NCBI GenBank assembly: GCA_030710605.1
Contig: CP092877.1
Location: forward strand, 44,934,406-44,998,405
Source of the DNA: Cordylochernes scorpioides
Lineage: Eukaryota > Arthropoda > Arachnida > Pseudoscorpiones > Chernetidae
Reading direction: 5' to 3'
DNA: 64,000 nt
Part shown: one piece after another, positions 2,536 through 61,837 of the stretch
Layout: the number at the start of each line of letters is the position of its first letter
Numbering within the stretch: the first letter of the stretch is position 1
Notes under the pieces: model-generated
The model's database searches: none
What the model was told of the DNA's origin: nothing
The model's input: the letters and a program-made list of their open reading frames with translations, nothing else
Position numbers and translations under genes: made by a program

Positions 2536-2606
2536 TACTCCCACCTTGAGTTTTTCTACAGAAACTCAACCAATAGTTGGGAAACGACCGTTTTCATTCC
2601 AGTTCT

Positions 2607-6161: not shown

Positions 6162-6202
6162 ATGACCATATTTCAGGCATCTGAAACAAGCCCCTTTCTT
6201 CT

Positions 6203-7348
6203 TTAATTTCCCAATTTATCTTCCAATGTCAAATTTTCCGCGAATTCGCACTTTGTACTTTCATGATCTCTTTCACAAAAGGCGCAATTCTTCCTCTTAT
6301 TCACTGCTTCAGAGGCATTCAAAAAACCAGCAGCCGTGGGCAGGGGATTCCTCTCATTTCTTCGATACTTCACGATAGAGCTTTGTGACTGAGGGTGCTC
6401 ATTTGATGGTTGGCCGGCTGTTATTTCGTCCCGCGTACCGAACGTGCTTTCTAATGCAATCAATTGTCTCTCCAAAAATTCAATAAAATCTCCAAGAGAA
6501 AAAGCTCCTGTGAATTCCCGGTGTAATTCAAGCTTTAAGTCTGATGGCAATAGCTTGAGGAGTAAAGGGCACAATAAGTTACCGTAGCTTTCAACGACAA
6601 CACCCAATGACTCCAAACTTCTAATCTGCACCAGGATTCTGCCGTACAATTCTCTGAAAGCCCTCACGTCCTTTGTCACTCTAAGTGGTTTCAAGGCCAA
6701 GAGGTTGTTCATATGCACGTCGATCAACCTTTCCCCTTTTCCGAAGCGTTTCTTCAACAATTCAACGGCCTTATCGTAATTTTCCTCAGATAGGCAAAAT
6801 CCTTCCACAGTTTGGGCCGCCGTTCCACCCAAGTAGGCTTTAAGATAGTTAAATTTATCTATCTTGGTCAAGTGTTCATTCCTATTGATTGATGAATCGA
6901 AGGCATTCCAAAAATTTAACCACTGGCTAATTTCCCCGTAGAATCTTTCCATTGTCAATTTGGGTAACTTAACCATCCCAGTTAGAGTCGGTCGACCGAT
7001 TTCTCCTGGATATTCCTTCTTCGTGGCAGTTGCAGTTTCCCTCTGCATTCCTTCCGCTACCACCAGACTTCTTTTCTTTAACAAATATTTCCACGCCACG
7101 GCCTTTTCCCGGTATTCCTCTACCATCTTTAGATCTTTCTCTAGATCTTTGATGTCAATCAGCTTACCGATTTCTTCGTCTACCCGCCTCAGTTCTTCGT
7201 AGACATCCGAAAGCTGCCCCAGCAGTTCCTCGTGGTCACACTCCTTGTGCACGTCATATTCCTCTATTCTTTTCCCGTACTTGGATAAAGACGTGCGGAG
7301 TATGGTTCTCTTCTTCTTGAGTCTCTCTAGCGCTTCTTCTCTCTCCAT
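6203..7348 (-). pseudogene. BEL/Pao Gag (frameshifted at its end)
   Basis: Retrotransposon structural protein that packages the element RNA. The most plausible start is the Met beginning MEREEALERL at 7348, just inside the 5' LTR; the frame is open further upstream but runs into the LTR. The first ~110 residues are heptad-like and Lys/Glu-rich (coiled coil). Then follows the conserved BEL/Pao Gag block (LPKLTMERFYGEISQWLNFWNAFDSS..., the DUF1759-type region). A cysteine motif CAFCERDHESTKC lies near the end. The frame closes at 6203 after LEDKLGN; a second zinc knuckle (CFRCLKYGHLSKFC) continues in another frame across 6161-6200, so a small indel near 6205 separates Gag from Pol. BEL elements normally encode one Gag-Pol polyprotein. 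Confidence 0.85.
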
Positions 7349-7416
7349 CTTCTGATCCAAAAGGGTTCCAAATATAGGCACGGCTTTCCTCCTCGCGTCC
7401 CGGCTGGGATGCCAAA

Positions 7417-7767
7417 TGTCGCGTTCAGCGGCGCAGCGCCCAGGCTCTATTTTGCCCAGACGCCCGAAGTCTCTTATTCTGGTCCCGGGAGGAAAAAATC
7501 CGTGGAATCTCAAAGGTAGAGAAGAGCGATTCCCAAGAAGTCAAATCCGCGGAAGTGTCTAAGGCAGGTATCAACCAAGGCGTAGACCTCTCGAGAGCGG
7601 GCCGAGAAACCACACGACTCTAACCAGTCAACTACTTTATTTTTTGTCACGAATATATATACATATAAATATTTACATATGGCAAATATGTTTCTTATAA
7701 TGGATTAAATTTACATATATTTAAAAAAATATAAATCTATAAGAAAAATAACATTCTTTTCCCAACA
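7417..7767 (-). repeat. BEL/Pao 5' LTR
   Basis: Partner of the LTR at 2189-2535, in the same orientation. On the minus strand it lies upstream of Gag. The right neighbour at 7768 is directly Penelope-like sequence. Confidence 0.92.
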
Positions 7768-16050: not shown

Positions 16051-16054
16051 ATTT

Positions 16055-17420
16055 ACACAAATAAACTTACTGGCAATGCGTTTCTTTTTTTAAATCTCTA
16101 CAGACCTTACTGCAATGATATGATTTAATGAATGAGAGGGCTTGGCTCATCAGTAGTGAACCCTCTCAGCGGTTTCGCCAAATTAATCTCTAGACCGCTC
16201 TACTATTGTATTGGACTGGTTTTGTTATATACCCTGCATTTTCTATGGAAGGCAGCTAAATGGTGTTTAGTGATCTATGGACATAAGCTTATAGGTCTGT
16301 AGAGGTACATACATATAAATTTCAAGGTATTGCATCGAGCAAAGCTCTTCCGCGCAAAACATGTTTTCATAACCATTATATATTAGTAAATTAAATTTTA
16401 TTGCCCTCCATCGCCAAAATTTTACACAAATAAACTTACTGGCAATGCGTTTCTTTTTTTAAATCTCTACAGACCTTACTGCAATGATATGATTTAATGA
16501 ATGAGAGGGCTTGGCTCATCAGTAGTGAACCCTCTCAGCGGTTTCGCCAAATTAATCTCTAGACCGCTCTACTATTGTATTGGACTGGTTTTGTTATATA
16601 CCCTAAAAAGAAACGCATTGCCAGTAAGTTTATTTGTGTAAAATTTAGGCGATGGAGGGCAATAAAATTTAATTTACTAATATATAATGGTTATGAAAAC
16701 ATGTTTTGCGCGGAAGAGCTTTGCTCGATGCAATACCTTGAAATTTATATGTATGTACCTCTACAGACCTATAAGCTTATGTCCATAGATCACTAAACAC
16801 CATTTAGCTGCCTTCCATAGAAAATGCAGGGTATATAACAAAACCAGTCCAATACAATAGTAGAGCGGTCTAGAGATTAATTTGGCGAAACCGCTGAGAG
16901 GGTTCACTACTGATGAGCCAAGCCCTCTCATTCATTAAATCATATCATTGCAGTAAGGTCTGTAGAGATTTAAAAAAAGAAACGCATTGCCAGTAAGTTT
17001 ATTTGTGTAAAATTTTGGCGATGGAGGGCAATAAAATTTAATTTACTAATATATAATGGTTATGAAAACATGTTTTGCGCGGAAGAGCTTTGCTCGATGC
17101 AATACCTTGGAATTTATATGTATGTACCTCTACAGACCTATAAGCTTATGTCCATAGATCACTAAACACCATTTAGCTGCCTTCCATAGAAAATGCAGGG
17201 TATATAACAAAACCAGTCCAATACAATAGTAGAGCGGTCTAGAGATTAATTTGGCGAAACCGATGAGAAGGTTCACTACTGATGAGCCAAGCCCTCTCAT
17301 TCATTAAATCATATCATTGCAGTAAGGTCTGTAGAGATTTAAAAAAAGAAACGCATTGCCAGTAAGTTTATTTGTGTAAAATTTTGGCGATGGAGGGCAA
17401 TAAAATTTAATTTACTTATA
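16055..17420. repeat. Inverted array of a 369-bp unit
   Basis: One full and one partial unit run in plus orientation (starts ACACAAATAAACTTACTGGC at 16055 and 16424, period 369). At about 16603 the array flips and two further units plus a partial run in the opposite orientation to 17420. Copies are almost identical. Within a unit, CTCTACAGACCTTA and its inverted partner TAGGTCTGTAGAG lie about 200 bp apart, which suggests the unit contains a small inverted-repeat element. The short frame at 16575-16796 is a by-product of the repeat. Confidence 0.85.
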
Positions 17421-17745
17421 TATAATTTACTATACTTTGGTATAATCTAAATTGAAAAATTATATGGCCTATACATTTTAAAAGAAATAGCAGAAAAGCT
17501 CTGAAATCATGCTTATCCTAGTAAACTAAAGATCCTCGCGATAACATAAAATAAAAATAAACAATTGGATTATCAAGAAATTAAGAAAAATTATAAGTAA
17601 TAGGCGCTTGAATATGTCAAGCAAAATCACTCGGGCGAATAAAGATTTTAAAAATATATATAAAAATTACTATACTTTGGTATAATCTAAATTAAAAAAT
17701 TATATGGCCATACATTTTAAAAGAAATAGCAGAAAAGTTTAAAAG
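17421..17745. repeat. Right flank of the satellite block
   Basis: Repeats the 15480-16050 unit: TACTATACTTTGGTATAAT followed by the AGAAATAGCAGAAAAG segment occurs twice (17427 onward and 17667 onward), with the CACTCGGGCGAAT motif between. Confidence 0.7.
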
Positions 17746-19882: not shown

Positions 19883-20054
19883 GTATTTAAATTTCAATGT
19901 GGTAATAAAAAAGAAATTCAGACCTTTTATCTTGTATATAAAGGAAGGGATTGGTTATCTATATATATAATTGCCTTATTTTGTCTGTCTGAAGCTCACG
20001 GATAGAATGCGCGCCCATTGGCTGCCGGCGAACACGTGATCTCCCTGCCCCCCT

Positions 20055-21170
20055 CTAGACAACCCTGTTATCAGCTGTGTGATACATACACCTGTCTATA
20101 GCGGCCATTCTAGACAACCCTGTTATCAGCAGTGTGTTACATCCACCTGTCTATACAGACCACCCTGTCTATAGCGGTCACTTTAGGCAACCCTGTAATC
20201 AGCAGTGTGTTACATCCACCTATCTATACAGACCACTCTGTCTATAGCGGCCACTCTAGACAACCCTGTTATCAGCTGTGTGATACATACACCTGTCTAT
20301 ACAGACCACCCTGTCTATAGCGACCATTCTAGACAACCCTGTTATCAGCTGTGTGATACATCCACCTGTCTATACAGACCACCCTGTATATAGCGGCCAT
20401 TCTAGATAACCCTGTTATCAGCTGTGTGATACATACACCTGTCTATAGCGGCCACTCTAGACCACCCTGTTATCAGCTGTGTGATACATCCACCTGTCTA
20501 TACAGACCACCCTGTCTATAGCGGTCACTTTCGGCAACCCTGTTAACATCAGTGTGTTACATTCACCTGTCTATACAGACCACCCTGTCTATAGCGGTCA
20601 CTTTAGGCAACCCTGTTATCAGCAGTGTGATACATACACCTGTCTATACAGACCACCCTGTCTATAGCGACCACTCTAGACAACCCTGTTATCAGCTGTG
20701 TGATTACATCCACCTGTCTATACAGACCACCCTGTCTATAGCGGCCACTCTAGGCAACCCTGTTATCAGCTGTGTGATACATCCACCTGTCTATACAGAC
20801 CACCCTGTCTATAGCGGCCACTCTAGGCAACCCTGTTATCAGCTGTGTGATACATCCACCTGTCTATACAGACCACCCTGTCTATAGCGGCCACTCTAGG
20901 CAACCCTGTTATCAGCTGTGTGATACATCCACCTGTCTATACAGACCACCCTGTATATAGCGGCCATTCTAGATAACCATGTTATCAGCTGTGTGATACA
21001 TACACCTGTCTATAGCGGCTACTCTAGACAACCCTGTTATCAGCTGTGTGATACATCCACCTGTCTATACAGACCACCCTGTCTATAGCGGTCACTTTAG
21101 GCAACCCTGTTATCATCAGTGTGTTACATTCACCTGTCTATACAGACCACCCTGTCTATAGCGGTCACTT
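20055..21170. repeat. 73-bp minisatellite inside the Helitron
   Basis: About sixteen copies of a 73-bp unit built of AACCCTGTTATCAGCTGTGT, GATACATCCACCTGTCTATA, CAGACCACCCTGTCTATAGC and GGCCACTCTAGGC. Some copies are shorter because they lack the 18-bp CAGACCACC segment. The apparent 60-110-codon frames are repeat artefacts without a coding signature. Confidence 0.92.
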
Positions 21171-21247
21171 TATAGACTGGTGAGCCTATAGCCTACTATT
21201 GAATTGAATTAAAACGTTTTTAAAATATATACGCACTCGGGTAAAAC

Positions 21248-27215: not shown

Positions 27216-27538
27216 TTTTTTTGCTTATCCCTAGTACACATGGTACAGGCCATGATATTCATGATGGGTTGAAGTTGGCGACTGCTTTTACTATAAGTGC
27301 ATCAAATGTCTACACATGTGAAAAGCAGTTCGACTTTGCGCTTACAAATGTGCCAGAGCCCCGTTTGGTTACTTGCACTCGCTGGTGGGGTTAGACTTTG
27401 CAAGAATCGGGGGCCATTGGAGCATTTAAAAAAATAAAAATAAAAAAAATATATAAAAAAAAAAAAAAAAAAAAAAAAAAGCGCCCGGGTCGTAGCGGAC
27501 GAAAACCAACGGTTTAGACCATCCTTCCACCGACCCCC
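27216..27538 (-). mobile_element. tRNA-derived SINE, copy 1
   Basis: The head at the right end reads (minus strand) GGGGGTCGGTGGAAGGATGG, then a tRNA-like part with A-box- and B-box-like motifs, an A-rich internal stretch, a ~200-bp body and a terminal A-run at the left. The interval 27199-27538 is flanked by an 18-bp direct repeat TGATGGTTGTGAATTCCT (27181-27198 and 27539-27556), the target duplication. The internal poly-A has expanded to about 30 bases in this copy. Confidence 0.85.
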
Positions 27539-27883: not shown

Positions 27884-28078
27884 TTCTGGTGGAGACAAGC
27901 TGGATCATCCCTTCGCTGCCCAAGCTATAAGAAGTCGTAGAATCCAAGGATTAAACCCATTGGAATATTCTAAGATGCAACATGAAGGAAGAGAGACCCC
28001 ACAGGGTGAGTACCACTTCAAACATATTAGAAACCCTTCTATATTTTCGGGGAACCGGGCCAAAGCCCGGAGAAGTGG

Positions 28079-29148
28079 TTGAAAGAGTACCATCGTGTAG
28101 CTCGCTACAACTGCTGGGACACTTCCATGTGCCTAGCAAATGTTTACTTCTTCCTCTCAGGAACGGCCAAAGTCTGGTTCGAGAATGTAGAGGAACAAAT
28201 AACCTCATGGGAACTTTTTGAGACAATGTTGTCTCAGGCCTTTGGGCATTACGCAAGCAAAAAAGATCAAATTTTAGAAAAACTAAAAGCCAGGGCCCAA
28301 GGAAAGGGAGAGTCTAGTGAGGCGTATATTCAAGACGTCCTCTATTTATGTCGGCAAATTAATCCCAACATGAATGAAAATGAAAAAGTTGCTCATTTAG
28401 TCAAGGGGGTCTCTGAGGTATTTTACAGGGCAATTGTAACCTTTGAAATTGCCACCACCGAGGAGTTTATAAGGTGGTGTCGAAAAATCGAACTATCTCA
28501 AAAGAAGCGTGTGAATACGCTGATAGTTTTTGACAGACTACCGAATGCTGCCGCCATCAACCCAGCAGAATCGGAATCTATGGAGGACCTCATTAGACGT
28601 ATCGTCCGAGAAGAAATCCACCATGCATTGAATCCCGAGCCAGCCACTCTCAAACCATCTTCCCTGGATCTAATTATTCGAGAGGAAGTTGAAAGGAACC
28701 TGTCTGCAATTTCGCAGCCCGTTCAAACGCCAATGCCACGACAGCAGTACTCTAACCGACCCCAAATATTCAGATGCCACGACAGCTGTTCCTGAACCAA
28801 AGAACACCGGCACCCAACCAGACACCACCACAGAGAAGAACTGATGAATGGAGGACACACGAAAACGTTCCAATATGTTTCCATTGCGGTCGCCCGGGAC
28901 ATGTAGCCCGATATTGCCGAGACAGAAGGCGTGTTTTCGAGGAAGCCAGGGTAAAGAGGCCGACCTACTCCAATAATTACAACACCTGGTTCAATCAAAA
29001 TGCCGAAGAAGTTGAGTTTGTAGATCGCCGCTTTCGAAACCCGTCGCCCTATCCTGGCCGTGGAAGATCCCCCTCAAGACGAAATGCAACGCCGTCACCC
29101 TCTCGTCGATCCAGTCAATCTCCTCGCCGCCTAAGCCAGGGAAACTAA
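28079..29148 (+). pseudogene. gypsy-1 Gag with CCHC zinc knuckle
   Basis: The capsid part (28079-28795) contains VYFFLSGTAKVWFEN and TSWELFETMLSQAFG, the retrotransposon Gag signature. A shift near 28780 leads to 28774-29148, with CFHCGRPGHVARYC, a perfect C-x2-C-x4-H-x4-C nucleic-acid-binding knuckle, and an Arg/Ser-rich tail. The N-terminal part upstream of 28079 is in another frame. Confidence 0.82.
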
Positions 29149-29220
29149 GGAGAGCGACCGAGACTGGAGGTAAGGCCGCTGACAAAAGTAGAAATCCTCC
29201 CTCTATTATAACTGCGAACA

Positions 29221-29778
29221 TGAAACGGAACTACGTTGGTATCATCATAAATGGACAGAATGTTGAGGCCTTAGTCGAATCTGGAGCCGATTATTCCGTA
29301 ATCTCGGAAAATTTTCGCTGATATTTGAAAATTCCCTTCTTTGCAGAAAAAGGGCCTGTACTGAGAGTCACCAATAGGAAGCATATCAAAACTCTGGGGC
29401 GCTGCAACTTAAAAGTGTCGTTTGAAAAACTTGAGATTTTATTTTACTTTTGTTGTCTTCTCTGAATGTAGCCATCACATAATCCTTGGTCTTGATTTAT
29501 TTCGAGCCACTAGTGCAGTGATTGATTGTGGAAAAGGTGAAATACATTTGAAGGAAAGCGTGAACGACGGCCTAGAAGATCTGCCTACACATGCATTAGA
29601 AGACTGGTTTATTCCAGCTCGCTCAATTAAGAAAATCACGGTTATTAACGAAGATATTCGAGGCGGAAAAGATCTAATGATAGAAGGAAGCAAAGATCTC
29701 ATCTTAAAAAAAGAATTGGTCATACCATCATCCATAATTAACTCCCATCACGGGCAGAGGGGAGATATGGGTAACTAA
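29221..29778 (+). pseudogene. gypsy-1 protease region
   Basis: The aspartic-protease active site reads EALVESGADYSVIS: the catalytic Asp of D-S/T-G is Glu. A TGA follows at about 29321 and another shift before the flap region. The later half (29422-29778) contains HHIILGLDLFRATSAVID, the conserved C-terminal ILG-D motif of retropepsins. Non-functional. Confidence 0.7.
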
Positions 29779-30099
29779 TGGGACTTCTCAGAATCAAATA
29801 ATCCCAGCTGGTATGCTTGTAGGATACCTGAGGAAAATTGGAAGTAGCGGAATCTACAGTGTTGACACAGCCGAAGACGATAAAACTCAATCAAACATTA
29901 AGAGTGAGGATAGACGCCAACAAATCTTATCTCTGGTAGACGAGAGATTAGATAAAGAACAAAAGTCAATGATTGCAGAATGTCTAGAAAAGTACTCGGA
30001 GGTTTTTGATTTTGAGAGAAAATCCTTCAGTACAACCTCCAATGTGAAACATAAAATCGACACCTCAGACAGCCGTCCTATTAAACAATGACCATACCG

Positions 30100-31761
30100 G
30101 GTGTCTCCTGTCGAAAGACGAGCTATACAAAGTGAAGTCGATAAAATGATAAAGATGGGAATTGTACAACCGTCCGAAAGTCCTTGGTCGTCTCCAGTAG
30201 TTTTGGTTAAAAAGAAAGATGGGTCCTGGAGATTTTGCGTATAGACTACCGAAAGCTTAACAAGGTCACCAAAAAGGATGTGTATCCTTTACCTAGAAAA
30301 GATGATGTTTTGGATAGCTTAACAGGAGCTAAATTCTTTTCCAGCATGGACCTACGTACAGGATACTGGCAGATAGAAATCGATGAGGAAGATCGGGAGA
30401 AGACAGCTTTCATCACCCCTGATGGCTTATATGAGTTCCGGGTGATGCCCTTCGGTCTATGCAACGCACCGGCAACATTCGAAAGAATGATGGACAAGCT
30501 ACTAGCAGGATTGAAATGGACAATTTGTCTTTGTTATTTAGACGATATAATTGTTTATGCTACATCCTTTAAAGAACATATTGAACGCCTAGGGAAAGTT
30601 CTCAGATGCATCCAGCAAGCGGGCTTGTGTATTAATCATGAGAAGTGCCGTTTTGGGTCAAGAGAAATCAAAGTGTTAGGACATCTGGTTACAGAAAGCG
30701 GCATTCGCCCTGATCCCGACAAAATTGAAGCAATTACAAATTTCCAGACTCCAAAAACAGCAACTGAAGTAAGAAGCTTCATGGGATTGTGTTCATATTA
30801 CAGGCGATTTGTGAAGGATTTTGCAAATAAAGCAAAGCCGTTACACGACCTCCTGAGGAATAACGTGAAGTTCTTTTGGTCTAACGAACAAGAACAATCT
30901 TTCCAAATATTAAAATCAGCCCTAACTACCGATCCTGTGCTTGGCCATTTTAAGGAAGATGCTGAGACACTTGTACATACAGACCTGAGTGGATATGGCG
31001 TCGGAGCAGTGTTGACCCAACTGGTAGGAGGAAAAGAAAAGCCTATCGCCTATGCATCAAGAACCCTTAACACCGCAGAAAGAAATTATTCCACGACGGA
31101 GAAGGAATGCCTGGCTGTAGTTTGGGCCATTTACAAGTTCAGACCATATTTGTTTGGAAAACACTTCACCGTCGTCTCCGACCATCATTCCCTGTGTTGG
31201 CTAGCTAATGTAAAGGATTCATCGGGAAGGCTAGCCAGATGGGCCTTGCGACTTCAAGAGTTTGACATATCTATTGTGTATAAGAATGGTAAAAGACACC
31301 AAGATGAAGATTGCCTCTCAAGAAGTCCTCTCCCCCAATCCAACGAAGATAACATACCAGAATTGTCTTCAATTACCGACATAAGAAAAGAGCAGAGAAG
31401 CGATGTCCAGACCAAAAAAATAATTCAGGAAATTGATTCCAAAAGTGAAAGTGGATACAAAATAATCGATGGGATCCTCTACCGCAAAAACTACGATCCC
31501 ATGGGCAAACCTTGGCTCTTAGTAGTGCCCAAACAAATGAGGGTTGACATTTTGAGTGAAGCCCACGATGCACCAATGGCGGGACACCTGGGATTTGCAA
31601 AAACATACGACCACATTAGAAGAAAATATTTCTGGCCCGGCTTGCATAGATCTGTGCGACAATATGTGGCTCATTGTCGAGAATGTCAACGGCGAAAAGG
31701 TTCTACCGAATGTCCACCAGGACAACTTGTGCCAATTCTGCCGGTTGCACAACCTTTTTAG
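30100..31761 (+). pseudogene. gypsy-1 reverse transcriptase, RNase H and integrase N-terminus
   Basis: After a TAG at 30241 the frame stays open for 508 codons (30235-31761). RT motifs: SSMDLRTGYWQIEI, FGLCNAPATFERMMD and CYLDDIIVYA (catalytic YLDD intact). RNase H follows (HTDLSGYGVGAVL, STTEKECLAVVWAI, VSDHHSLCWL), then the integrase HHCC zinc finger (H...H...CRECQRRKG). The first RT motif (SPWSSPVVLVKKKDGSWRFCV) lies upstream of the stop. The frame closes with TAG at 31759. Confidence 0.9.
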
Positions 31762-32433
31762 AAAATAGGGATAGATTTGTTAGGAAGATTCCCTACCTCG
31801 AACGATGGCAATAAATGGACCGTGGTCGCGACAGACTATCTAACAAGGTATGCTATGACCAAAGCCATACCAAATGTAAGTTCGGAAGAAGTTGGAAAAT
31901 TTATAGTAGATGTGATCCTTAAACATGGAGCCCCCAAAGAATTGATTTCAGACCGAGGTCGAACGTTTATATCTCACACAATAAGGGAGATTAACAACCT
32001 CTGTGGAACCGCACATCGCTTTACTTCTGCCTACCACCCCCAAACAAATGGCCTGACCGAGAGACTCAACAAGACACTTGGTGACATGCTGTCTATGTAT
32101 GTTGACGTAGACCAAAGAAACTGGGACTCAGTTCTCCCTTACGTAACTTTTGTCTATAACACCGCCAAACAGGAAACCACGGGGTTTAGCCCTTTCTATC
32201 TTGTACATGGACGCGATGTCGAGACCCCATTGGACACCATCCTGACGTATAGAGAGGAAGCCAATCTGGAAGACTACGTGGAGTGTTTGGTCACAAATGC
32301 CGAGGACGCATGCCAGCTGGCCCGTTTGAACATTTTGAAGGCGCAAGAAAGACAAATCTTGATACGACCAAAGCCACAGACCTGTCCAGTATCGCGCGGA
32401 AGACCTTGTGTGGATGTACACACCTGTGCATAA
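31762..32433 (+). pseudogene. gypsy-1 integrase core
   Basis: Continues in frame after the TAG at 31759. The acidic triad is visible as VATDYLTRY, LISDRGRTF and QTNGLTERLNK (D, D, E). The frame shifts near 32390; the C-terminal region (KRYFGPYKVVRQLSEVTYEV, about 32457-32520) follows in another frame. Confidence 0.88.
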
Positions 32434-40731: not shown

Positions 40732-41046
40732 GGGGGTCGGTGGAAGGATGGTCTAAACCGTTGGTTTTCAACCGCTACAACCCGGGTTCAATTCCCCCAT
40801 TGGGCACTTTTTTTTCTGATTTAAAAAAAAAATGCTTCAATGGCCCCCGATTCTTGTAAAAGTCTAACCCCACCAGCGAGTGCAAGTAACCAAACGAGGC
40901 TCTGGCACATTTGTAAGTGAAAAGTCGAACTGCTTTCACATGTGTAGACATGTGGTGCACTCACAGTAAAAGCAGTCACCTATTACTACCCACCATGATT
41001 ACCATGGCCTGTATCATGTGTACTAGGGATAAGCAAAAAAAAAAAA
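40732..41046 (+). mobile_element. tRNA-derived SINE, copy 2
   Basis: The best-preserved layout. The head is GGGGGTCGGTGGAAGGATGG; the A-box-like TGGTCTAAACCGTTGG and B-box-like GGTTCAATTCC sit at polymerase III spacing. Then come an A-run, a body with CCCCGATTCTTG, CACCAGCGAGTGCAAGTAAC and ACATGTGTAGACATG, and the end GTACTAGGGATAAGC plus poly-A. It is flanked by the 12-bp duplication ATTAAAACTATA (40720-40731 and 41047-41058). Confidence 0.92.
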
Positions 41047-41742: not shown

Positions 41743-42018
41743 ATAATAGTATATGACGTTTTGGTGACAGTGTTGTTATCATTATCAAACAAAAGTAATG
41801 AATGAGAAAAATTATTATGGTAACAACGCCGTTACTGAAACATCTCTATTAATCACATTAATTTATTTGGATTTGGTCTTATTTTCTTGTAACTATAATC
41901 TATAATCCAAATTGTGATTTATGATGCAAAAAAAAACATGTGTGATAAAAAAAGCATTTATACAAATGCATTTGGTTAAAACCCTGCCCAGTAATTTGCC
42001 TGGTTATATATATATATA

Positions 42019-43278
42019 CAGTAAAACCCCGCTAATACGAACCCTGGATATAACGAACCTTCCCTTATAACGAACCCACGCCAATTCCCAATTCCATTCC
42101 ATTGAAAATACCATCGTTATAACGAACTTTGCGATTTTTAGAATAACGAACTACCCCTATAACGAACCTATTTCGGTTCCCAAAATGATAAAATCTATTA
42201 AAAATACTATGCTTATAACAAACTTAGAATTGTAATTTTAAAAAAATTAAAACAACAAAATTTTGAGCATGTTTCAGCTCGCAATCGCGATTTCAAAACA
42301 ATAAATTTAACGGCATTGTTTGTTTTGATTTTTGCTGTATGTTTTATAAATTTTTACACATTATACTTTTTATTAAACAGAATATCTTTGCATCCATTAA
42401 AATTGAAATATAAAAAATGCAAATGGCTTCCAAAATGAAGAAAACAAAGCATTTTAAAAACAAAAGCGTTATTTCTTTTTAAAAAAAGGCCATTTTCAGA
42501 ACTTTTCAAAGTGAAACAACATAGGCAAAATGTTAAGAACATATTAAAATAAGATAATATAACTTTTCTATTATAAAATATAAAGTTATTAAAAATTGTT
42601 ACAATGAGGAATCAACCTCAACTTTTGCCGCGATCGTGATCGTACGTTTTAGGGCTAAAAAAAAAAAATCCAAATAAACGGTCCCGTGATGAAACAAAAA
42701 TTATTTTTATGCCATTAACCATGGTGATTTTAAGTCAGCAATGTTCTGCATGACAAGTTAAAAAAAAAAAAACGAAATCTAGACCTAGAAGAATATGTGG
42801 AAACATGAAATGGAAGAAAAACATTAACTTTATTTGAATGGTGCAATGCTTGAAGAATGCTTTGAAACAACAAGATATTAGAGCCATTTTTTCAAGTAAA
42901 AATTGTATTATATAATGTGATAATGATGTTTTAAAATCATTTCATATCTTTGAATATATATTTAATAAAACTTTGCCTAGGATTTGTCTTGATTTTGAAA
43001 TTAGACATAGAGGTACATGTATGTTAATGATAAGAAGAACCTATCATCTAATGATTTATTTTATTATTCAGTATTAATGTATGGAAATTGGTCAATTAAG
43101 GGAATTAAAATAAAGTGACCACTATTAAGAGGCAGCCTCTTCTTGTGTGTATGGCTGTTTTTTAATTATAGTCTAAAAATTTTGAAAAGTAAAAAAAAAA
43201 AAAAAAAATAGCCAAACCGTGGCTATAGTGAACGAAAAGCTCTGTCCCATTGGGGTTCACTATAGAGGGGTTTTACTG
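42019..43278. mobile_element. pogo/Tigger-like DNA element, copy 1 (uninterrupted)
   Basis: 1.26 kb with inverted ends CAGTAAAACCCCGCTAATAC and ...CACTATAGAGGGGTTTTACTG, flanked by TA. Subterminal repeats GTTCGTTATAACGA-like (ATAACGAACCTTCCCTTATA...) recur several times near one end. No transposase frame, so it is non-autonomous. The CAGTAAAACC(C/T)C end and TA target suggest pogo/Tigger, but I infer that from the ends only. The copies at 44552 and 57550 are the same family, reversed. Confidence 0.78.
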
Positions 43279-46193: not shown

Positions 46194-46499
46194 TTTTTTT
46201 TCCTTATCCCTAGTACACGTGGTACAGGCCATGATAATCATGGTGGGTAGTTAGCGACTGCTTTTACTGTAAGCGCACCACATGTCTACACATGTGAAAA
46301 GCAGTTCGACTTTGCACTTACAAATGTGCCAGAGCCCCCGTTTAGTTACTTGCACTCGCTGGTGGGGTTGGATTTTTGCAAGAATCGGGGGCCATTGGAG
46401 CATTTTTTTTTTAACAGAAAAAAGTGTCCAATGCGGGAATCGAACCCGGGTTGTAGTGGTCGAAACCAAACGGTTTAACCAGCCTTCCACCGACCCCCG
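46194..46499 (-). mobile_element. tRNA-derived SINE, copy 3
   Basis: Minus orientation. It carries a canonical B box, GGTTCGATTCC, within CCCGGGTTCGATTCCCGCAT (46430-46450), and the same head, A-run and body as copy 2. Flanked by GTGTGTGGT on both sides (46186-46194 and 46501-46509). Inserted in Tigger copy 2. Confidence 0.88.
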
Positions 46500-46693
46500 A
46501 GTGTGTGGTAACCTATGTAAGCAAACAATGGTGCTAAATTTATTGTTTTGAAATCGTGATCTGAGAGTTGAAAAACATGCTCAAAATTTTGTTTTAAAAA
46601 ACCTATGAATCAAAATTTCGGTATAAGCCAGGTATTTTAATTAGAATTTATTATTATGGGACTTAAAATTAGGTTTGTTATAGGGATAGTTTA

Positions 46694-46817
46694 TGTTTTA
46701 ATGTCCATCCATACAGAGTTCAAAACAACAACTCACTCACCCGTGCAGGCAAGGTCACGCTCCGCTGCGTCACGTGGGAAAACATACGTACATGTTTTCG
46801 TACATGTTCTCAGCACA
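46694..46817 (-). repeat. gypsy-2 3' LTR
   Basis: 124 bp. Identical to 49601-49724 except one base (CACCCGTGC here, CACCAGTGC there). Contains GCGTCACGTGGG and a repeated GTACATGTT. Confidence 0.95.
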
Positions 46818-46876
46818 TCCCCTTTTTAAGATTTGAAACATATATATACATTACAAACTTTAAATGCATAATATAA

Positions 46877-48601
46877 TTAATAATGAAGGCAATCCACAGG
46901 TTTAACAATTCGTCCACTCCGGGTTCTTATCTGGCCGTCTTCTGAGTCGTTAGAGGGATAATCCACAACTGGGGTCTTTTCATTTTCAACCAGTTCCTCC
47001 CCTGAAAAGGTCGGCGTCGATGGGTCGGCTGGATATTGCACTGTAACTCCTTTTCGTAGATGGAACCTGTTTCGACGTAAAGTCCCAACTGGAGTATCAA
47101 CCATATATGACCTTGGTGTCGATGCCTTCTGCTTTACAATCCCCCAGGTTCGCATATCTGTAATCCAAACCATGTCACCTTCGGATAGCTCCTCCATGTC
47201 CGTAGCTCCGCAGCGTCGATCATATCTGGATTTCATATCCTTTCTCCTTCTCCCCTCCTTTCTTTTCAGGGTCTGAGAGTCCACCAACTTTGGATTAAGA
47301 TTCCCTGGTGCAATTGGCAAGGTCGTTCGGAGTTTACGTCCCATGAGAAGCTCAGCAGGGCTGTAACCGTTCTCCAAAGGGGTCGATCGATACTCCAGGA
47401 GTCCAAGCGATGGGTCTTGATTTTTCTTGAGGATCAACTTAGCAATTTTCACACCTGCTTCTGCCATCCCATTGCTCTGCGGGAATCGAGGACTTGAAGT
47501 GACATGTGTGAATCCGTACTGCCTTGCGAAATTTGCAAATTCACGAGCAGCTCCAAATTGCATCCCATTATCGCTTACAACAGTTTCTGGTATTCCATGT
47601 CGGGCAAATATGGATTTGCAACTACGCACCACCACACTGGCAGTGAGCCGATCCAGCTGAATCATTTCAGGAAAGCGAGAATAATAGTCAATGACGACTA
47701 GATACCACTTATTCTCGAACTTGAACAAATCCATTCCAATCTTTTGCCACGGTCGTGTAGGAAAGTTGGTTGGTATCAAAGGTTCATGTTTTGAGACGGC
47801 TTCCTGGATACAGACACTGCACTTTCTGACCGTTTCCGCGATCTCTTCCGAAATTCCAGGCCACCATACCGTCTCACGTGCGCGAAGTCTTGTTTTTGTA
47901 ATCCCGAAGTGCCCAGCGTGCAACTTATCTAGGATCTCCAGTTTCATACTTGCTGGAATAACAAGACGACAGCTACGCATCAGTAGTCCATTTTGAACGC
48001 CGAGTTCATCCTTGACATGCCAATAAGAGAGCAGAGCCTGTGACATCTTCTTCTTATCTGGCCAGCCTTGCTCAAGGTAGTTGACTACTGCTTTCAGGGT
48101 CGTATCTTCTTGTTGAGCATTAAAAATTTTCGTCAAGATCTCGTCTTTGTCGAACTCTTCCAATCTTGTTTTGAGCTTTTCCATCAAAGGTACTGTTACC
48201 CGTCGAGGAGTATGCACAGCATATGGTTTTGCTCCAGGTTTCAATTTGATTTCGTAAGGGTTTCCGATCTGTCCCAGTCCTTCAAATACTTCGGGGAATT
48301 CCTTGATCGGGTTAATTCTCGTCGCAACCACTTCAATCCGCCTCGCCAGGTTCAAGAGCTCACATGCCCGGCGACTCAGAAGAGGTTCACTCAAACGACG
48401 AATGACATAAATCTTCTCCTTGATTTCATAATTGCCATTTCGCAGCGTTGATATAAACATACCCACAGTCTGAAGTTCGGAGAATTCAGCAGCTCTAATG
48501 TTGAAATCACTTTCCACTAGTCGTTGCTGTCCCATTATCTTCTTGAAGAGACACAGAGGAACACATGTAACATCCGCCTGGGAGTCGAGCTTAAACTTCA
48601 C
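46877..48601 (-). CDS. gypsy-2 Pol remnant: protease C-part fused in frame to integrase
   Basis: One intact 574-codon frame. The protease site reads KFKLDSQADVTCVP (Asp-Ser kept, Gly of D-S-G replaced by Gln). The frame passes RRACELLNLARRIEVV and reaches KPYAVHTPRRVTVPLMEKLK, the extreme N-terminus of RT. At EEFDKDEI|LTKIFNAQQE it jumps to the post-RNase H linker. The integrase is complete: zinc finger (HAGHFGITKTRLRAR...CSVC) and acidic triad in GMDLFKF, VVSDNGMQFG and PQSNGMAEAGVK. The conserved YxDD of RT and the whole RNase H are missing. A +1 in an A-run at about 48605-48610 separates it from upstream protease residues (WTAEIQVNGKK). Confidence 0.85.
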   Translation of the reverse strand: MKFKLDSQADVTCVPLCLFKKIMGQQRLVESDFNIRAAEFSELQTVGMFISTLRNGNYEIKEKIYVIRRLSEPLLSRRACELLNLARRIEVVATRINPIKEFPEVFEGLGQIGNPYEIKLKPGAKPYAVHTPRRVTVPLMEKLKTRLEEFDKDEILTKIFNAQQEDTTLKAVVNYLEQGWPDKKKMSQALLSYWHVKDELGVQNGLLMRSCRLVIPASMKLEILDKLHAGHFGITKTRLRARETVWWPGISEEIAETVRKCSVCIQEAVSKHEPLIPTNFPTRPWQKIGMDLFKFENKWYLVVIDYYSRFPEMIQLDRLTASVVVRSCKSIFARHGIPETVVSDNGMQFGAAREFANFARQYGFTHVTSSPRFPQSNGMAEAGVKIAKLILKKNQDPSLGLLEYRSTPLENGYSPAELLMGRKLRTTLPIAPGNLNPKLVDSQTLKRKEGRRRKDMKSRYDRRCGATDMEELSEGDMVWITDMRTWGIVKQKASTPRSYMVDTPVGTLRRNRFHLRKGVTVQYPADPSTPTFSGEELVENEKTPVVDYPSNDSEDGQIRTRSGRIVKPVDCLHY

Positions 48602-48613
48602 CTTTTTTCCCGT

Positions 48614-49518
48614 TCACTTGGATTTCTGCTGTCCATCGCCTCCTGCACTCGTCTTCATCATTATCGAGATTAGATGAATCCTCCACAGCTGAGACCTCCA
48701 GGAGTACACCAATTTCTTCATCAAGTTCAGAAACAGCTTTGCTTCCGCAGTCTTCGCCTGCTTATCTGGGCAGCAATTTGCAAAATGGCCAGTTTTTGAA
48801 CATAGGTTACATCTTTGTCCTTCAGCACGGCAAGCCTGTCCTTCCCTGTGGGTGAAACCTCCGCATTTTGGACTTCGTGATCTTGTTTTGGCTGACTTCT
48901 CCTTCCTCGAAGGCTGCTGTTGTTGTTTCGGTGATCGTTTCTTCGAGTTGAACTTCACCTGATTGACCTTTTGGCTTGTTGAGGGACGCTGCAGGTCGAC
49001 TTGCTGCTGTCGAACGGCTTCCTGCTGTCGAACCATTTTCACCGCCTTTTCCAAAGTCAGTTCGCTGTCCAACTGCATTCTTTCAGATAAAGCTTTGTCC
49101 CTCACTCCAACCACTATTCGGTCACGGATCAACTGCTCATGAAGACCCTCAAATTCGCAACTATCAGCCAATTTGTACAATGAAGTGATGAATTCGTCCA
49201 CTGGCTCCCGATCCTCTTGGTTTCTTGAATTAAATTTCGCACGTTCGTAGATAATATTCTTTCTGACACAGAAGTGGCTGTCGAATGCCTTGAGGACGGA
49301 ATCAATTTTCGTTGCCTCTTCCTCCTTTTCGAACTTGAAGGTCTGAATATATCATCCGCACGGTCACCCATCAAGTACATGAACAAATCGATCTTGTCCG
49401 CCTCCTCTTTCTTCTTCATTCCACTGACCACGAGGTATCGTTCGAATCTCTTCCTCCATTTGGGCCATTCGTTGGGAGTCGAGAAGTCGAAAGTTTCTGG
49501 AGGTTGAATCTGAGCCAT
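48614..49518 (-). pseudogene. gypsy-2 Gag (frameshifted)
   Basis: Starts MAQIQPPETFDFSTPNEWPK (49518), the usual start of Mag-type gypsy Gag. A frameshift near 49300 moves the capsid into the frame of 48614-49201 (DEFITSLYKLADSCEFEGLH, LIRDRIVVGVRD, LQLDSELTLEKAV-like). It ends with zinc knuckle CNLCSKTGHFANCC (C-x2-C-x4-H-x4-C). The Pol frame is reached by a -1 shift near 48725 (…KAVSELDEEIGVLLEVS…). Confidence 0.82.
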
Positions 49519-49600
49519 GTTGAATTATCTTCCAAGGTACGCAAAAATCGATATTTTGCAATATACGGGTTCGTATTTTATCCAGTTATCGCTGCCACCA

Positions 49601-49724
49601 TGTTTTAATGTCCATCCATACAGAGTTCAAAACAACAACTCACTCACCAGTGCAGGCAAGGTCACGCTCCGCTGCGTCACGTGGGAAAACATACGTACAT
49701 GTTTTCGTACATGTTCTCAGCACA
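49601..49724 (-). repeat. gypsy-2 5' LTR
   Basis: Partner of 46694-46817. On the minus strand it begins TGTGCTGAGAAC and ends ACATTAAAACA, followed directly by TGGTGGCAGCG. Confidence 0.95.
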
Positions 49725-49919
49725 GTTTATTTTAAAATATCCCAAAGTTTGTTATAACCCTGGTATCTTAAATAGGATGGAATTACTATCATTATAAGGG
49801 AAACTTCTCTATATCCTGGGTTTGTCTTAACAGAGGTTTTTACTGTATATCTAAACAAAATACTAAGCTTTTTCTTTTATAGTTTTAACATTGCCAAACC
49901 TTCCCAATATATTTTTCAT

Positions 49920-50185: not shown

Positions 50186-50483
50186 GGGGGGGGTCAGTAG
50201 AAGGAGGGTCTAAATCATTGGTTTTCAACCGCTACGACCCGGGTTGGATTCCCGCATTGGCCACTTTTTCTGATATATAAAAAAAAATGCTTCAATAGCC
50301 CCCGATTCTTGCAAAAGTCCAATCCTACCAGCGAGTACAAGTAACCAAACAGGGCTCTGGCACATTTGTAAGTGTAAAGTCGAACTGCTTTTCACATGTG
50401 TAGACATTTGGTGCACTTACAGTAAAAGCAGTTGCCTATGTGTACACGTGTACTAGGAATAGGCAAAAAAAAAAATATATATA
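50186..50483 (+). mobile_element. tRNA-derived SINE, copy 4
   Basis: Same head and body as copy 2 with several substitutions (head GGGGGGGTCAGTAGAAGG; end GTACTAGGAATAGGC plus poly-A). Flanked by the 12-bp duplication TATATATAGGTT (50174-50185 and 50484-50495). Confidence 0.88.
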
Positions 50484-56715: not shown

Positions 56716-58616
56716 TATCAATGACTTCAGGTTAGTAGTCTTTTTAAGCAGGATGACCACTAATGCACAAGCATTAGTGGGCCCATTTACCCTTTGGTCA
56801 AGTGCTTAGATTCAGTTTAGACATTGACTAGGACCTGCTTCCTTATCATTAACACCAGATAGAGGGTCTCGTGGTTCAGTTCTAACAGGGGGTGTCATTA
56901 GCTCCCAGGTGACAATACTCATCTCCATGCTAGTCAATGATTGCCTTGAGAGCTAGGACATTCAGAGGATAGATTGGCCACATCTCCTGACCAATATAAC
57001 TTATCAATACACCTTTTCAGAATCCTCCTCAAACTTAAATCTCTTCCTTCAGAGTGGGATTTATTGCCCAAGAACTCTTTCAAAGCCATGAAAGCTCATT
57101 GTAAGAGTGGTATAGCTTTTAGAGGTAACCATACACTCTACCTATTGATCTACATTTCTTGGGAGATTTGCTGCCTCATTTTTTGTGTTTTAAAAATTTA
57201 TTTTTTTATTTTTCAAATCCATAGAGCGAGATTGATTAACTATAAAATAGGCAATAATATTTAAATACTGTATTAACATTCACACGCAAGATTTTGCTGA
57301 GTGCCATAAGGTCTTGAATATATAGAAAAGGCATCATTTAATAAAGTCTATAGAAGAAACATTGGTGCACAGCTATGTCCAGCTGACCTGGCAAGATCAA
57401 ACTTTGACATGACATAGAGATTGAAAAGAGACACTGTCATAGTTTTGACCTCAGAATATGTTAAGTACTCTGATAAAAAGCCATTTTAGATATATTCTGT
57501 TTACACAACATATTTCTGCAATACTTGACCATGTAGTGGAAACTTAATACAGTAAAACCCCTCTATAGTGAACCCCAATGGGACAGAGCTTTTGGAGCAG
57601 TTTGGCCTTTTTTTTTAAACTTTTCTAAATTTTTAGACCGTATAATTAAAAAACAGCCATACAAACAGATAAAGGCAGCCACTTGATAATGTTCACTTTG
57701 TTTTAACTCCCTAAATTGACCAATTTCTTTACAGTAATGCTGAATATCAAAAGAAATCATTTGATAATAGGTTCTTCTTATCATTAGACTACATGTTTAT
57801 ATATAAACCTCTATGTATTATTTAAAAATTTAGCCAAATCCCCTAGGCAAAACATTATTAATTATATATTTAAAAGGTATAAGAGTATTTTAGAACATCT
57901 TTCTCAAATAATATAATACTATATTTATTTGAAAAAATGCCTCTAATACCTTGTTGTTTGACAGTGAAATTTGAAAATCAGAATTATTTTAAAATATCAT
58001 TATTTCCATCAAAGGAATAAAGTTCAGTGTATTCTGAATCAATTGAGGATGAATCAAAAGTATCCAATTCAGAAAAATCAGACGTGAAACATGTTGATAC
58101 GATAGCGCGATCAGTAAAATTGCGAATAAAAAACACCAATTTACAAACACAAAATCGGTGGTAAAACGGCCGGCCAGGGGGGAATATCCGCGAACCCTGA
58201 ATGAGTCATATACCTAACAAGAATTCCATTCTAAAAATAGAACTGTAGTGGTAGTTTTTGAGAATTTATAAGTCGATTTGTTTGTGGCTCATGAGACACG
58301 GGAAACTTGGGGAAACTTTTTTTTTTGTCTTCTTCTTCCAATTCAAGTTTCCACCTATTCTTCTGAAGTGTATATTAAATTTTGTTTTAACCTGTTATTC
58401 AAACCATTTCTGGCTTTAAAATTATTTGTAATTATTTTTTAGCCTAGGTTAAACTTGATATAGAACACTTCTAAAGGGGAATGCTGCCACTGTTTTTTTT
58501 AGAACGCCATTCTTTGTTTCTTTTCTTTATTTTGGAAGCCATTTGTATTTTTCTTCTATTTCAAAATTGTCGAATGCAAAGATATTCTATTAGATAAAAG
58601 TATAATGTGTAAAAAT

Positions 58617-60287
58617 GGAATAATAATAATGGAAAAATGGAAACAAACTTGTGAAAACCTGAACCCAAGAAACCCGAATACAAAACTTTGGCATTTGGCA
58701 AAACAAATTGACAGAGCCCAGCCACAAACTGAAAACACAAATATGATTAAGAATACGGTTGGTACCCCAGCAACTAATGACAAAAATGCTGCTAATCTTT
58801 TAGGTAATTCATATCAAATAAGTAGTAAAATCAAATTCGAAATAAAAGATAAGAAAGTTGAAAAAAAGGCCCGAAAGATTATTCATGACTGTAAAAATTT
58901 CACCAGCACTCATAATATTTTCCATGAAAAAATCAATATGAAAGAGCTAGATTATGCATTAGAAAACTCTGACCTAAACAAGACTCCTGGGCCAGATGGA
59001 ATCCATGGCCAAATGATATCAAACTTGGGCAAAAATGGCAAAGAAATACTTCTTGATATTTTCAATAACTCCTGGAAAACTGGAAAATTGCCTCAAGACT
59101 GGAAAACTGCAACAATAATTCCTATTAAAAAACTTGACAAATCTGCTGATGACCCAAAAAACTACCGACCTATCTCCCTCACAAGTATTTGCTGCAAATT
59201 AATGGAAAAAATTATACTCAGACGACTTACCTACCACCTTGACACAAGAAATCTCTTACCAGAAGAACAATATGGATTTAGGAAAGGACATGGGACAATA
59301 GACCAACTCTTATTTTTCACACAAAAGGTAAAAGATGCACAAAACAGAAAACCAACTAGCCACACCATAGCTGCTTTTTTAGACCTTACACAAGCTTTTG
59401 ATAAAGTATGGAAAAACAAGTTGATTACAAAATTATACAAGCATTTCAAAATTGATGGAAAAGCTATCACTTGGATAAATGATTTCCTTAAAAATAGATA
59501 CATCAGGGTCAAATATAATGGAACTCTATCTAAAACCTTCAAATTGTACCAAGGATTACCACAAGGATCAGTCCTTAGCCCAACTCTCTTCACCCTATTT
59601 ATTGCAGGCATAGAAGAAAAAATTTCACATAAAACCAATATTGGACTTTTCGCTGATGACATTATTCTATGGAGCAGTAACACTAACTGGAAAAAAGCTG
59701 AAAGGGATTTGAACAAGACTTTTCTCCACCTAGAAAAATTTGCTAATAAACATAAATTAGAATTTAACCCCCAAAAATCTGAAACCTGTCTTTTTACTAC
59801 CGATAAGAAACTATACAAAATAAGGCCAAAAATTATTCTGAAAGAACAACAATTACAATATAATAAACATCCTAAATATCTTGGCTACACCCTGGATCCA
59901 GAAATTAACTCCAGTAAACATATTGAAGAAGTTATTAGAAAAGGAAGAGACCGACTAAAAATCCTGAAATATATTTCAGGAAGAGAGTGGGGAGCCGATG
60001 CAACCACACTAAAATTAACTTACACGTCTCTAATTAGACCTATCCTGGAATATGGATATCAAATCTATGGTACAGCATCTGAAACAAATCTAAAATCACT
60101 GGAAAGGATACAACTAAGTGCAGCTAGAATTATTACAGGTCTTCGAAATACCTGCCCTAACGATATTGTACTTTACGAGGCAGACATTATGCCCTTAAAG
60201 GATAGAAGAAGCTACAATCTGCCAAAAATATATAAACAAAATCAAGAGTTATGGAAACAAACACGGAACTTCCAATTACATACTTAA
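58617..60287 (+). pseudogene. LINE-B reverse transcriptase (truncated 5', frameshifted 3')
   Basis: About 556 codons open. The apparent ATG at 58605 lies in the target duplication and is not the native start. Motifs: KTPGPDGIHGQMISN, NYRPISLTSICCKLMEK, AAFLDLTQAFDKVW (catalytic Asp), GLPQGSVLSPTLFTLFI and GLFADDIILWS (catalytic FADD intact), then the thumb region. The frame breaks after NFQLHT; a one-base change near 60285 joins it to the RNase H part. Confidence 0.9.
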
Positions 60288-60289
60288 TT

Positions 60290-61281
60290 GGGAATCCAAT
60301 CTAAGACTCAAAAAAGAAGGTCCTCTCCACCTGGCCAAAAGAAATGGATTTTTAAAATATAAAGTAGAAAAAAATTATTTAGCAGAAAAAATTTCTCCAT
60401 GCGAACCACTACAAAATGTTATTTTTAATGACACTTTAAATGAACCCACCAACAAACAATACCAAAATCCAGAATACTTAAAACAATTATCATTAGAAAT
60501 AATTAATAACATTCCTAAAAATGCAATAACTATTTATACCGATGGTAGCAGAGATGAGTTGGGACACACTGGCAGTGGCTGTCTCATCAAAACTAAAAAT
60601 GGCATTGAGAAAATGAACAGAAGAAACCCAGATTTTTGCTCAGTCTTCAGATCAGAACTTATAGCCATCTATGAAGCCTTAAAATCCATCAGAAATACTA
60701 ATTATCAAGATATCTGGATTCTTACTGATAGTAGAAGTGCCATACAACACTTGAGTCACACAGGGGAACTCGGAGACAAAGTAAGCAGGAACTTAATTGG
60801 TTATCTCCAAAAACACTCAAAAACCTCAAAAATTCACCTTCAATGGATACCCTCACATGTTGGAATTGAAGGCAATGAAGCTGCTGATGTTCTAGCGAAA
60901 AAAGGCACAAAAGAACCCTTGCCACAGAAAAATAAACTTACTTTTAAAGAAATAGAAACAGTAGCCAAAACAAAAATAAACAAGAACTGGAGGATCCCAC
61001 CTAGGCACAGTTGGTACAGTGGAGTGAACCCAGGAGGAGCTCTAAACATCAGAAATAGACAGCATCAAACAACACTAACAAGATTTAGAACAGGCCATCT
61101 CAAGCCATTGAAGATAGAAAATAATAACAAAATCTACCCCACTTGCCCAAAATGTAGCTTGTCACCTGCAGCTCCAGAACACATTTTGGCTTGCATTAGA
61201 TGCACTAAACAGGACCTTTGGGAGAGGCCGCTGCTCATCATAAAACAGCTCGAGGAGCATGAACTCATGGAATTCGTGTAA
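60290..61281 (+). pseudogene. LINE-B RNase H and C-terminus
   Basis: Read in the shifted frame. RNase H motifs: IYTDGSRDELGHTGSG (first Asp), FRSELIAIYEAL (Glu), WILTDSRSAIQHL (Asp) and SHVGIEGNEAADVLAKK (His/Asp). It ends with a zinc-like motif (TRFRTGHLKPLKIE...CPKCSLSPAAPEHILACIRC) typical of RNase H-bearing LINEs. The ATG at 60559 is internal. Confidence 0.9.
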
Positions 61282-61837
61282 TCTTTACACAAGGGGATAA
61301 GAAACAACAACAACAACAATAATGTGTAAAAATTTATACAACATACAGAAAAATAGAATGGAAATGAAAACAAACAATGCCGCTAATTTTTTGTTTTGAA
61401 ATTGCGATCCGTGAGCTGAAACATGCTCAAAATTTTGTTGTTTTAAAAAATTTTTAAGTTCGTTATAAGCCTAGTATTTTTAATAGATTTTATCATTTTG
61501 GGACCGAAAATAGGTTGGTTATAGGGGTAGTTCATTATTTTAAAAATCGCAAAGTTCGTTATAACGATGGTATTTTCAATGGAATGGAATTGGGAATCGC
61601 CGTGGGTTCGTTATAAGGGAAGGTTCGCTATATCCAGGGTTCGGATTAGCAAGGTTTTACTGTATAAGTTATTCTGATTATAGAGTAATTGTTATAGTTT
61701 CATAGAGTGAGGGTCTCATAGTCTCTACACACTCTTTAAAAATATATAATAATAAAAAAAATAATAGTCCAATTTTATGGGGTCAGATAATGAACAATAA
61801 TGTATGTTGGGCAAACATTTACTCAGGCAGAACTTAC

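Follow-up and report, generated by a model that had tools for sequence, protein, structure and literature searches.

The stretch of DNA analysed here (the window) comprises 64,000 nucleotides from Cordylochernes scorpioides (CP092877.1, positions 44,934,406-44,998,405 of the forward strand), and all element positions given below count within it. On its minus strand lies a Ty3/gypsy element bounded by long terminal repeats (LTRs) (Table 1), in which the sequences for reverse transcriptase (RT) and RNase H are missing and an open frame with the integrase is retained. We consider it very probable that this element belongs to a non-autonomous Ty3/gypsy subfamily, here termed class A, that lost RT and RNase H, spread by means of the enzymes of its relatives, and kept Gag and protease.

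A first-pass annotation, made from the sequence alone, had described near-identical 124-bp LTRs and a perfect GTTTA target duplication, and both were confirmed: the LTRs differ at one position (C/A) over 124 bp and GTTTA flanks the element on both sides, the chance that a random pair of 5-mers from the window matches being approximately 0.0017. Joined together, the flanks form a continuous repeat, other copies of which lie at 61364-61666 and 42011-42322 (aligned parts 77-82% identical), and since a diverged repeat is thereby rebuilt the insertion was precise. The annotation had also deduced recent movement from the LTR identity. A single difference in 124 bp corresponds to a divergence with a 95% interval of 0.02-4.4%, so that the window copy taken alone can be called young only within loose bounds. 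The integrase frame, which had been given as 574 codons, measures 578 codons from stop to stop and is indeed open, with no in-frame stop; the two remaining frames contain 25 and 35. Pfam searches of this frame matched Integrase_H2C2 and rve and found neither RT nor RNase H, and the Pfam search of the element gave no protease match in the protease region. In the integrase core the second D and the E of the DDE motif were located by pattern and all three residues by alignment. The gag region of the window copy differs from that of an open class A copy by indels of -1, -3, -1, and +1.

Table 1. Features of the Ty3/gypsy element and its target site, in window positions.
Feature	Position	Strand	Remark
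Whole Ty3/gypsy LTR element	46694-49724	minus	
Target-site duplication GTTTA, left copy	46689..46693		
3' LTR	46694..46817	minus (element sense)	124 bp, TG..CA ends
Polypurine tract AAAAAGGGGA	46818..46827	minus	adjoins 3' LTR; read from sequence
578-codon frame	46880..48613	minus	protease region, lead-in to RT, linker after RNase H, integrase
Integrase core	47486..47758	minus	Pfam rve
Integrase zinc-binding domain	47804..47959	minus	Pfam Integrase_H2C2
Class A deletion junction	48150..48152	minus	CGA, 3-bp microhomology
Protease region and lead-in to RT	48153..48613	minus	motif DSQ
Gag region	48614..49518	minus	frame broken in window copy
Zinc knuckle	~48767-48811	minus	weak Pfam match, E 0.14; motif visible
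Putative primer-binding site	49582..49600	minus	adjoins 5' LTR; read from sequence
5' LTR	49601..49724	minus	124 bp
Target-site duplication GTTTA, right copy	49725..49729		

Compared with the full-length copies of the family (approximately 4.2-4.3 kb; L017, L018, L019, L024, L028, and L041), class A has lost 1266 bp (422 codons), a multiple of three, between breakpoints that share CGA. In L024, the single full-length copy examined with Pfam, the part missing from class A contains RVT_1 and RT_RNaseH domains. The annotation was thus right that the RT-RNase H core had been removed without breaking the frame, and L024 is the kind of full-length relative by which it had hoped to fix the deletion end points. 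These end points differ from the ones it gave: its junction, between EEFDKDEI and LTKIF, lies approximately five codons too far downstream, as DKDEI belongs to the downstream side when compared with RT-bearing copies and the junction falls at the CGA. Homologues of the element (L001 and L002) were also found on two tubeworm contaminant contigs within a bacterial metagenome-assembled genome (MAG). In L002 the 423 codons between both junction sides encode RT and RNase H, and in L001 gag and the stretch preceding RT share one reading frame with a stop inside. These gypsy elements, presumably from the tubeworm Escarpia and binned in the MAG of a bacterial endosymbiont, represent a case of public-genome contamination.

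The usual protease motif of such elements is DTG or DSG, and the protease region had been annotated as a remnant. DSQ was found at this place in 25 of 29 family rows spanning class A, class B (see below), and full-length copies, the motif not being located in the remaining four and class C standing outside the check. A protease killed by a DTG-to-DSQ change was rejected on these grounds. DSQ appears to be a characteristic of the family rather than damage, and it would be an unusual active-site motif if the protease is functional.

The host genome (2.62 Gb in 24 contigs) was searched using a 23-mer across the class A junction (at most one mismatch), which occurs at 187 places including the window (reversed control: none); this is a low count, because the pattern was the window's own allele, which is one step from the commonest. 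A 120-bp junction query gave 271 first-look candidates, and all 40 places scored (the window among them) match its positions 2-120 or better at 95-100%. The annotation had named a lone copy as the finding that would overturn its proposal, and the junction proved to be widespread. Of the 16 class A rows (the window, L011, L023, L031-L040, and L045-L047), 11 are bounded by two LTRs, and each of these shows a perfect 5-bp target duplication different from all others; L031, L035, L038, and L039 stand outside this test as two LTR matches of at least 115 bp were not found in them. Ten of the 11 LTR pairs differ by zero or one substitution (zero in L037), and the eleventh (L046) by 7 of 112. Since the junction is shared and the target duplications differ, the deletion predates the insertions and retrotransposition carried it many times. 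Class A is therefore a non-autonomous subfamily in the sense of several copies that share a deletion and have independent target duplications.

Seen by itself the window holds one copy, whose LTRs and target duplication date the insertion and not the deletion, and a full-length insertion might have lost RT-RNase H in place and never moved again. Such a dead copy is refuted by the 187 places and by the different target duplications of the 11 bounded copies, and we give it practically no credence. Deletion in place would, on the other hand, leave LTRs that look identical, for which reason the LTR identity from which the annotation had derived mobilisation by RT in trans is insufficient; the claim itself is supported by the copy number and the 11 independent insertions. 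Segmental duplication or an assembly artefact could also multiply a junction, and three class A places on C2 that lie approximately 15.2 kb apart (65939552, 65954772, and 65969973) include some that are probably duplicated blocks. As a substitute for retrotransposition this is very improbable, because the 11 bounded copies are on different contigs or far apart and differ in their target duplications.

The class A copies L031-L040 were picked for the similarity of their junctions, and the class B copies and five of the six full-length ones because their LTRs resemble those of the window; the ages of the classes are therefore not fairly comparable. Copies found by junction or RT pattern (L031-L044) have LTRs that are approximately 89-97% like those of the window, compared to 96-99% for LTR-found copies. 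Since the internal regions of L031-L044 vary by just a few per cent, the LTRs either have swapped variants or evolve more quickly.

Two further deletion classes were identified in the same family. Class B (L012, L015, L016, L020, L021, L025, and L027, with L009 and L010 as partial members) is RT-less as well, with a net 1149 bp removed between other breakpoints and 117 bp more of the RNase H-integrase stretch kept, and its junction pattern occurs at 288 genome places. Class C (L042, L043, and L044; junction pattern at 205 places) has kept RT; its deletion, at a 7-bp microhomology, spans 1425 bp and takes out RNase H together with the integrase core. The deletions of all three classes are multiples of three and leave the gag-protease region in place, and all seven bounded class B and all three class C copies have their own, different target duplications. 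A 23-mer pattern in RNase H was found at 722 places, which are a possible helper pool. A pattern on the 5' RT side occurs at 928 places, near the 927 obtained by adding the RNase H and class C places; the 928 are not all full-length, three of the first four examined being class C. Preservation of the frame in all three deletions would also fit reverse transcription of spliced RNA. This origin was rejected and is hardly credible, since in classes A and C, which were examined for it, the breakpoints lie in 3-bp and 7-bp repeats and no placement gives GT...AG ends. Among the other copies, L029 and L030 carry different deletions around RT (2917 and 3285 bp) and possibly stand for more deletion classes, and L022 contains at 4319-5233 a 915-bp derivative of the family with LTRs and the target duplication GTAAA, from which most of the internal region is gone.

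Linkage of single nucleotide polymorphisms (SNPs) to the junction was analysed in 27 rows (13 class A, 9 class B, and 5 full-length). L029, L030, and L022 were left out of this analysis, of the trees, and of the substitution counts given below, and L009, L010, and L011 wherever a segment was missing. Next to the junction (columns 1571-1576) the r2 with class A is 0.74 at position 1533 and 1.0 at position 1592. Linkage is found only within approximately 50 bp; for distances above 100 bp, mean r2 per bin is 0.02-0.10 and the highest single value does not exceed 0.20. Under permutation of the labels the mean near-site linkage was 0.04 and none of 300 permutations was as high as the observed value. 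Confinement of linkage to the neighbourhood of the junction suggests recombination with RT-bearing copies, as expected for two RNAs sharing a particle. At 22 sites every one of the four possible combinations with the junction is seen in two or more rows; 21 of these sites are not CpG and four are transversions, two on either side of the junction. The integrase tree (26 rows) clusters class A, with 3 changes compared to a shuffled mean of 9.0 (0 of 500 as low), and a single class A clade was not rejected for the integrase by the approximately unbiased (AU) test (p 0.432). These patterns suggest that the junction arose once and subsequently recombined with RT-bearing and class B copies. An alternative is repeated origin at a single microhomology hot spot: the class A backbones are as mixed as the whole family, and class A is not grouped by the gag tree (26 rows; 7 changes compared to 8.9 on average after shuffling, 67 of 500 as low), one clade not being rejected there either (AU p 0.179). 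We regard repeated origin as unlikely, because the strong or complete linkage of two flanking SNPs to the junction is hard to square with random backbones and because class B has other breakpoints.

An unbroken frame from the gag ATG to the integrase, coding for Gag-protease-integrase in approximately 880 codons, is present in six of the 11 bounded class A copies (six of all 16 rows), the window copy not being one of them. The gag-to-integrase frame is unbroken in two of the seven bounded class B copies, and a Gag-protease-RT frame of 828 codons is intact in two of the three class C copies. One of the six full-length copies is open throughout gag-pol. Ratios of nonsynonymous to synonymous changes (N:S) were determined separately for shared changes (in two or more copies) and single-copy changes, leaving class C out of the integrase counts. 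For gag-protease, shared and single-copy N:S were 12:18 and 94:38 in 16 class A rows with one full-length reference (p=0.0024), and 27:31 and 150:61 in all usable classes (33 rows, p=0.0009). The integrase gave 26:12 and 58:31 in 15 class A rows with one full-length reference (p=0.84), and 40:16 and 100:51 in all usable classes (29 rows, p=0.51); RT gave 2:4 and 22:7 in nine class C and full-length rows (p=0.06). Pairwise pN/pS values for gag-protease and integrase were 0.34 and 0.57 within class A and 0.32 and 0.41 within the full-length copies. These counts are suggestive of Gag-protease, and not the long integrase frame, as the part that is probably kept by selection. The Gag-plus-integrase element of the annotation thus exists in six bounded copies of class A, although gag is broken in the window copy and the integrase is without detectable constraint. 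Frame lesions confined to gag (p 0.04), once considered as proof of selection on the integrase, were dropped as an argument after the other copies had been read.

It is possible, if doubtful, that class A is a passenger only, whose RNA is copied through its cis signals like a defective interfering genome, with idle proteins and a frame that is open by youth. The unconstrained integrase agrees with this, as does the absence of the open frame from five of the 11 bounded copies, the window's included. It is at odds with the constraint on Gag-protease in class A rows, and with the fact that all three deletion classes retained Gag-protease and lost multiples of three bases.

Returning to a subfamily that moves by its relatives' enzymes and keeps Gag-protease, we propose that one ancestral copy lost the 1266 bp with RT and RNase H in frame at the 3-bp microhomology, the most likely mechanism being a template switch in the course of reverse transcription. 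The deleted RNA would have retained the LTRs, the putative primer site, the polypurine tract, Gag, protease, and integrase, and would have been packaged and copied by the RT and RNase H of full-length relatives of the same family. Class A then inserted at many independent sites. Through presumed co-packaging with other family RNAs the deletion recombined, short of recurrent mutation, onto many backbones. Selection would have kept Gag-protease while the family spread, with no detectable constraint on the integrase, and the data are suggestive of Gag as the likely contribution of the class A element itself. The window copy would be a recent member in which gag was broken later or had already been broken when it was copied.

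Besides the unclustered gag tree, several points weigh against this interpretation. The evidence for mobilisation in trans comes from genome sequence. The permutation result covers sites within 300 bp and includes the junction's own columns, the rank correlation between linkage and distance is weak (rho -0.23, p=0.07), 15 of the 22 sites with all four combinations involve an A/G change, of a kind that editing or errors of RT could produce again, and the trees are close to a star shape, few of their branches having support. The N:S test treats linked sites as independent and its numbers are small. The integrase pN/pS of 0.57 within class A is below 1, though single-copy changes show a similar N:S, and the constraint shared in gag could be inherited from full-length copies via recombination.

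A further, tentative proposal is that the family as a whole may be a split, quasi-multipartite retrotransposon, in which full-length copies and classes A, B, and C coexist, share particles, and exchange everything but their junctions, each keeping Gag. If true, the forms without RT and those without integrase could in part make up for what the other lacks, with full-length copies needed for RNase H.

The window copy shows the Ty3/gypsy traits of TG...CA LTRs and a 5-bp target duplication, and such duplications were found in all 29 other bounded copies from the same genome that were tested. The pol order protease, RT, RNase H, integrase is seen in the full-length relatives, the window copy being without RT and RNase H. 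The integrase has zinc-binding and core domains (Pfam), and Ty3-G and PFV (prototype foamy virus) chains are among its best PDB matches. No chain named after the intracisternal A-particle (IAP) was among the 21 PDB matches listed for the integrase, and the searched set may contain none. Ginger DNA transposons have a gypsy-like integrase without RT, terminal inverted repeats, and no LTRs; this identity was rejected because direct LTRs and gag are present. Within Ty3/gypsy the family may belong to the Mag lineage, a placement that is only partly supported. Traits of that lineage, in part after an excerpt of PMC3286476, include RT clustering with Mag, short LTRs, a single open reading frame, and a tRNA-Leu or -Ser primer. 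Of these, short LTRs and a single frame are seen in the family. Searches of viral contigs and genome contigs with the integrase protein and of viral contigs with degenerate and LTR patterns, PDB matching of the protease piece, and Rfam and tRNA scans led nowhere.

Other repeats are present in the window. A BEL/Pao retrotransposon at 2189-7767 has LTRs of approximately 350 bp that are 98% alike and coding in successive different frames, and a second gypsy-like element at 28031-32430 contains gag-like, RT, RNase H, and integrase pieces with broken frames. Open frames resembling a long interspersed nuclear element, with RVT_1 and RNase H domains, lie at 58503-61278. A dispersed repeat with the look of a short interspersed nuclear element (approximately 210-310 bp, approximately 88-92% alike) occurs at 27216-27427, 40732-41041, 46195-46498, and 50189-50439, and the tRNA scan found no tRNA gene. 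Tandem arrays of 73 bp and 369 bp, the latter with inverted copies, are at 20050-21172 and 16052-17426.

It is rare to catch non-autonomous LTR elements in the middle of their spread with the greater part of their coding capacity retained. Here the junction patterns of three in-frame deletion classes occur in one genome at 680 places (187, 288, and 205) beside 722 RNase H places, and the copies read differ by just a few per cent. Parasitism versus cooperation, supply of Gag in cis, and recombination of co-packaged RNAs are thus testable by counting and sequencing. A literature search (titles and abstract openings of open-licence papers) found no description of a comparable gypsy set.

The comparison with known systems draws on excerpts of the papers cited. 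The annotation had called the architecture unusual and unlike that of large retrotransposon derivatives (LARD) and terminal-repeat retrotransposons in miniature (TRIM). Those are described as LTR-bounded, non-autonomous elements with no coding sequence that are thought to move in trans (PMC3286476), and the window element, with its open integrase frame, is indeed unlike them; precedents for its architecture exist in the mouse IAP 1-delta-1 and the wheat RLG_Sabrina. IAP 1-delta-1 carries an internal deletion and a gag-pol fusion and is mobilised in trans, its own fusion protein reportedly helping in cis; it is a mouse class II endogenous retrovirus (ERV) with a 1.9-kb deletion reaching into gag (PMC6466679, PMC7060167). 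Class A, by contrast, is Ty3/gypsy, has Gag and protease untouched by its deletion, and exists alongside other deletion classes. In wheat, RLG_Sabrina and RLG_WHAM, described as gypsy elements without RT and integrase, are regarded as belonging to a cooperative complex with RLG_Wilma, and a RLG_Sabrina variant with GAG and protease has been termed semi-autonomous (PMC9744471). RLG_Sabrina is, according to the same excerpt, a family separate from its helper and without integrase (PMC9744471), whereas the deletion classes here are a few per cent from full-length copies and appear to recombine with them. Likewise in wheat, the non-autonomous gypsy element RLG_Quinta gives Gag and RLG_Cereba provides the enzymes; its authors date the RLG_Quinta lineage to 28-35 million years and the excerpt describes it as without integrase (PMC11302176). 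New insertions of bovine ERVK[2-1-LTR] are dominated by defective D-type elements, which are taken to be complemented in trans and recombine with competent ones (PMC10924933). D-type elements are described there as lacking functional genes, whereas class A has an open Gag-protease-integrase frame in over half of its bounded copies. What distinguishes the present family is that a Ty3/gypsy element has retained Gag, protease, and integrase, that three in-frame deletion classes are present, one of them opposite in that RT is kept, and that linkage is found only near the junction.

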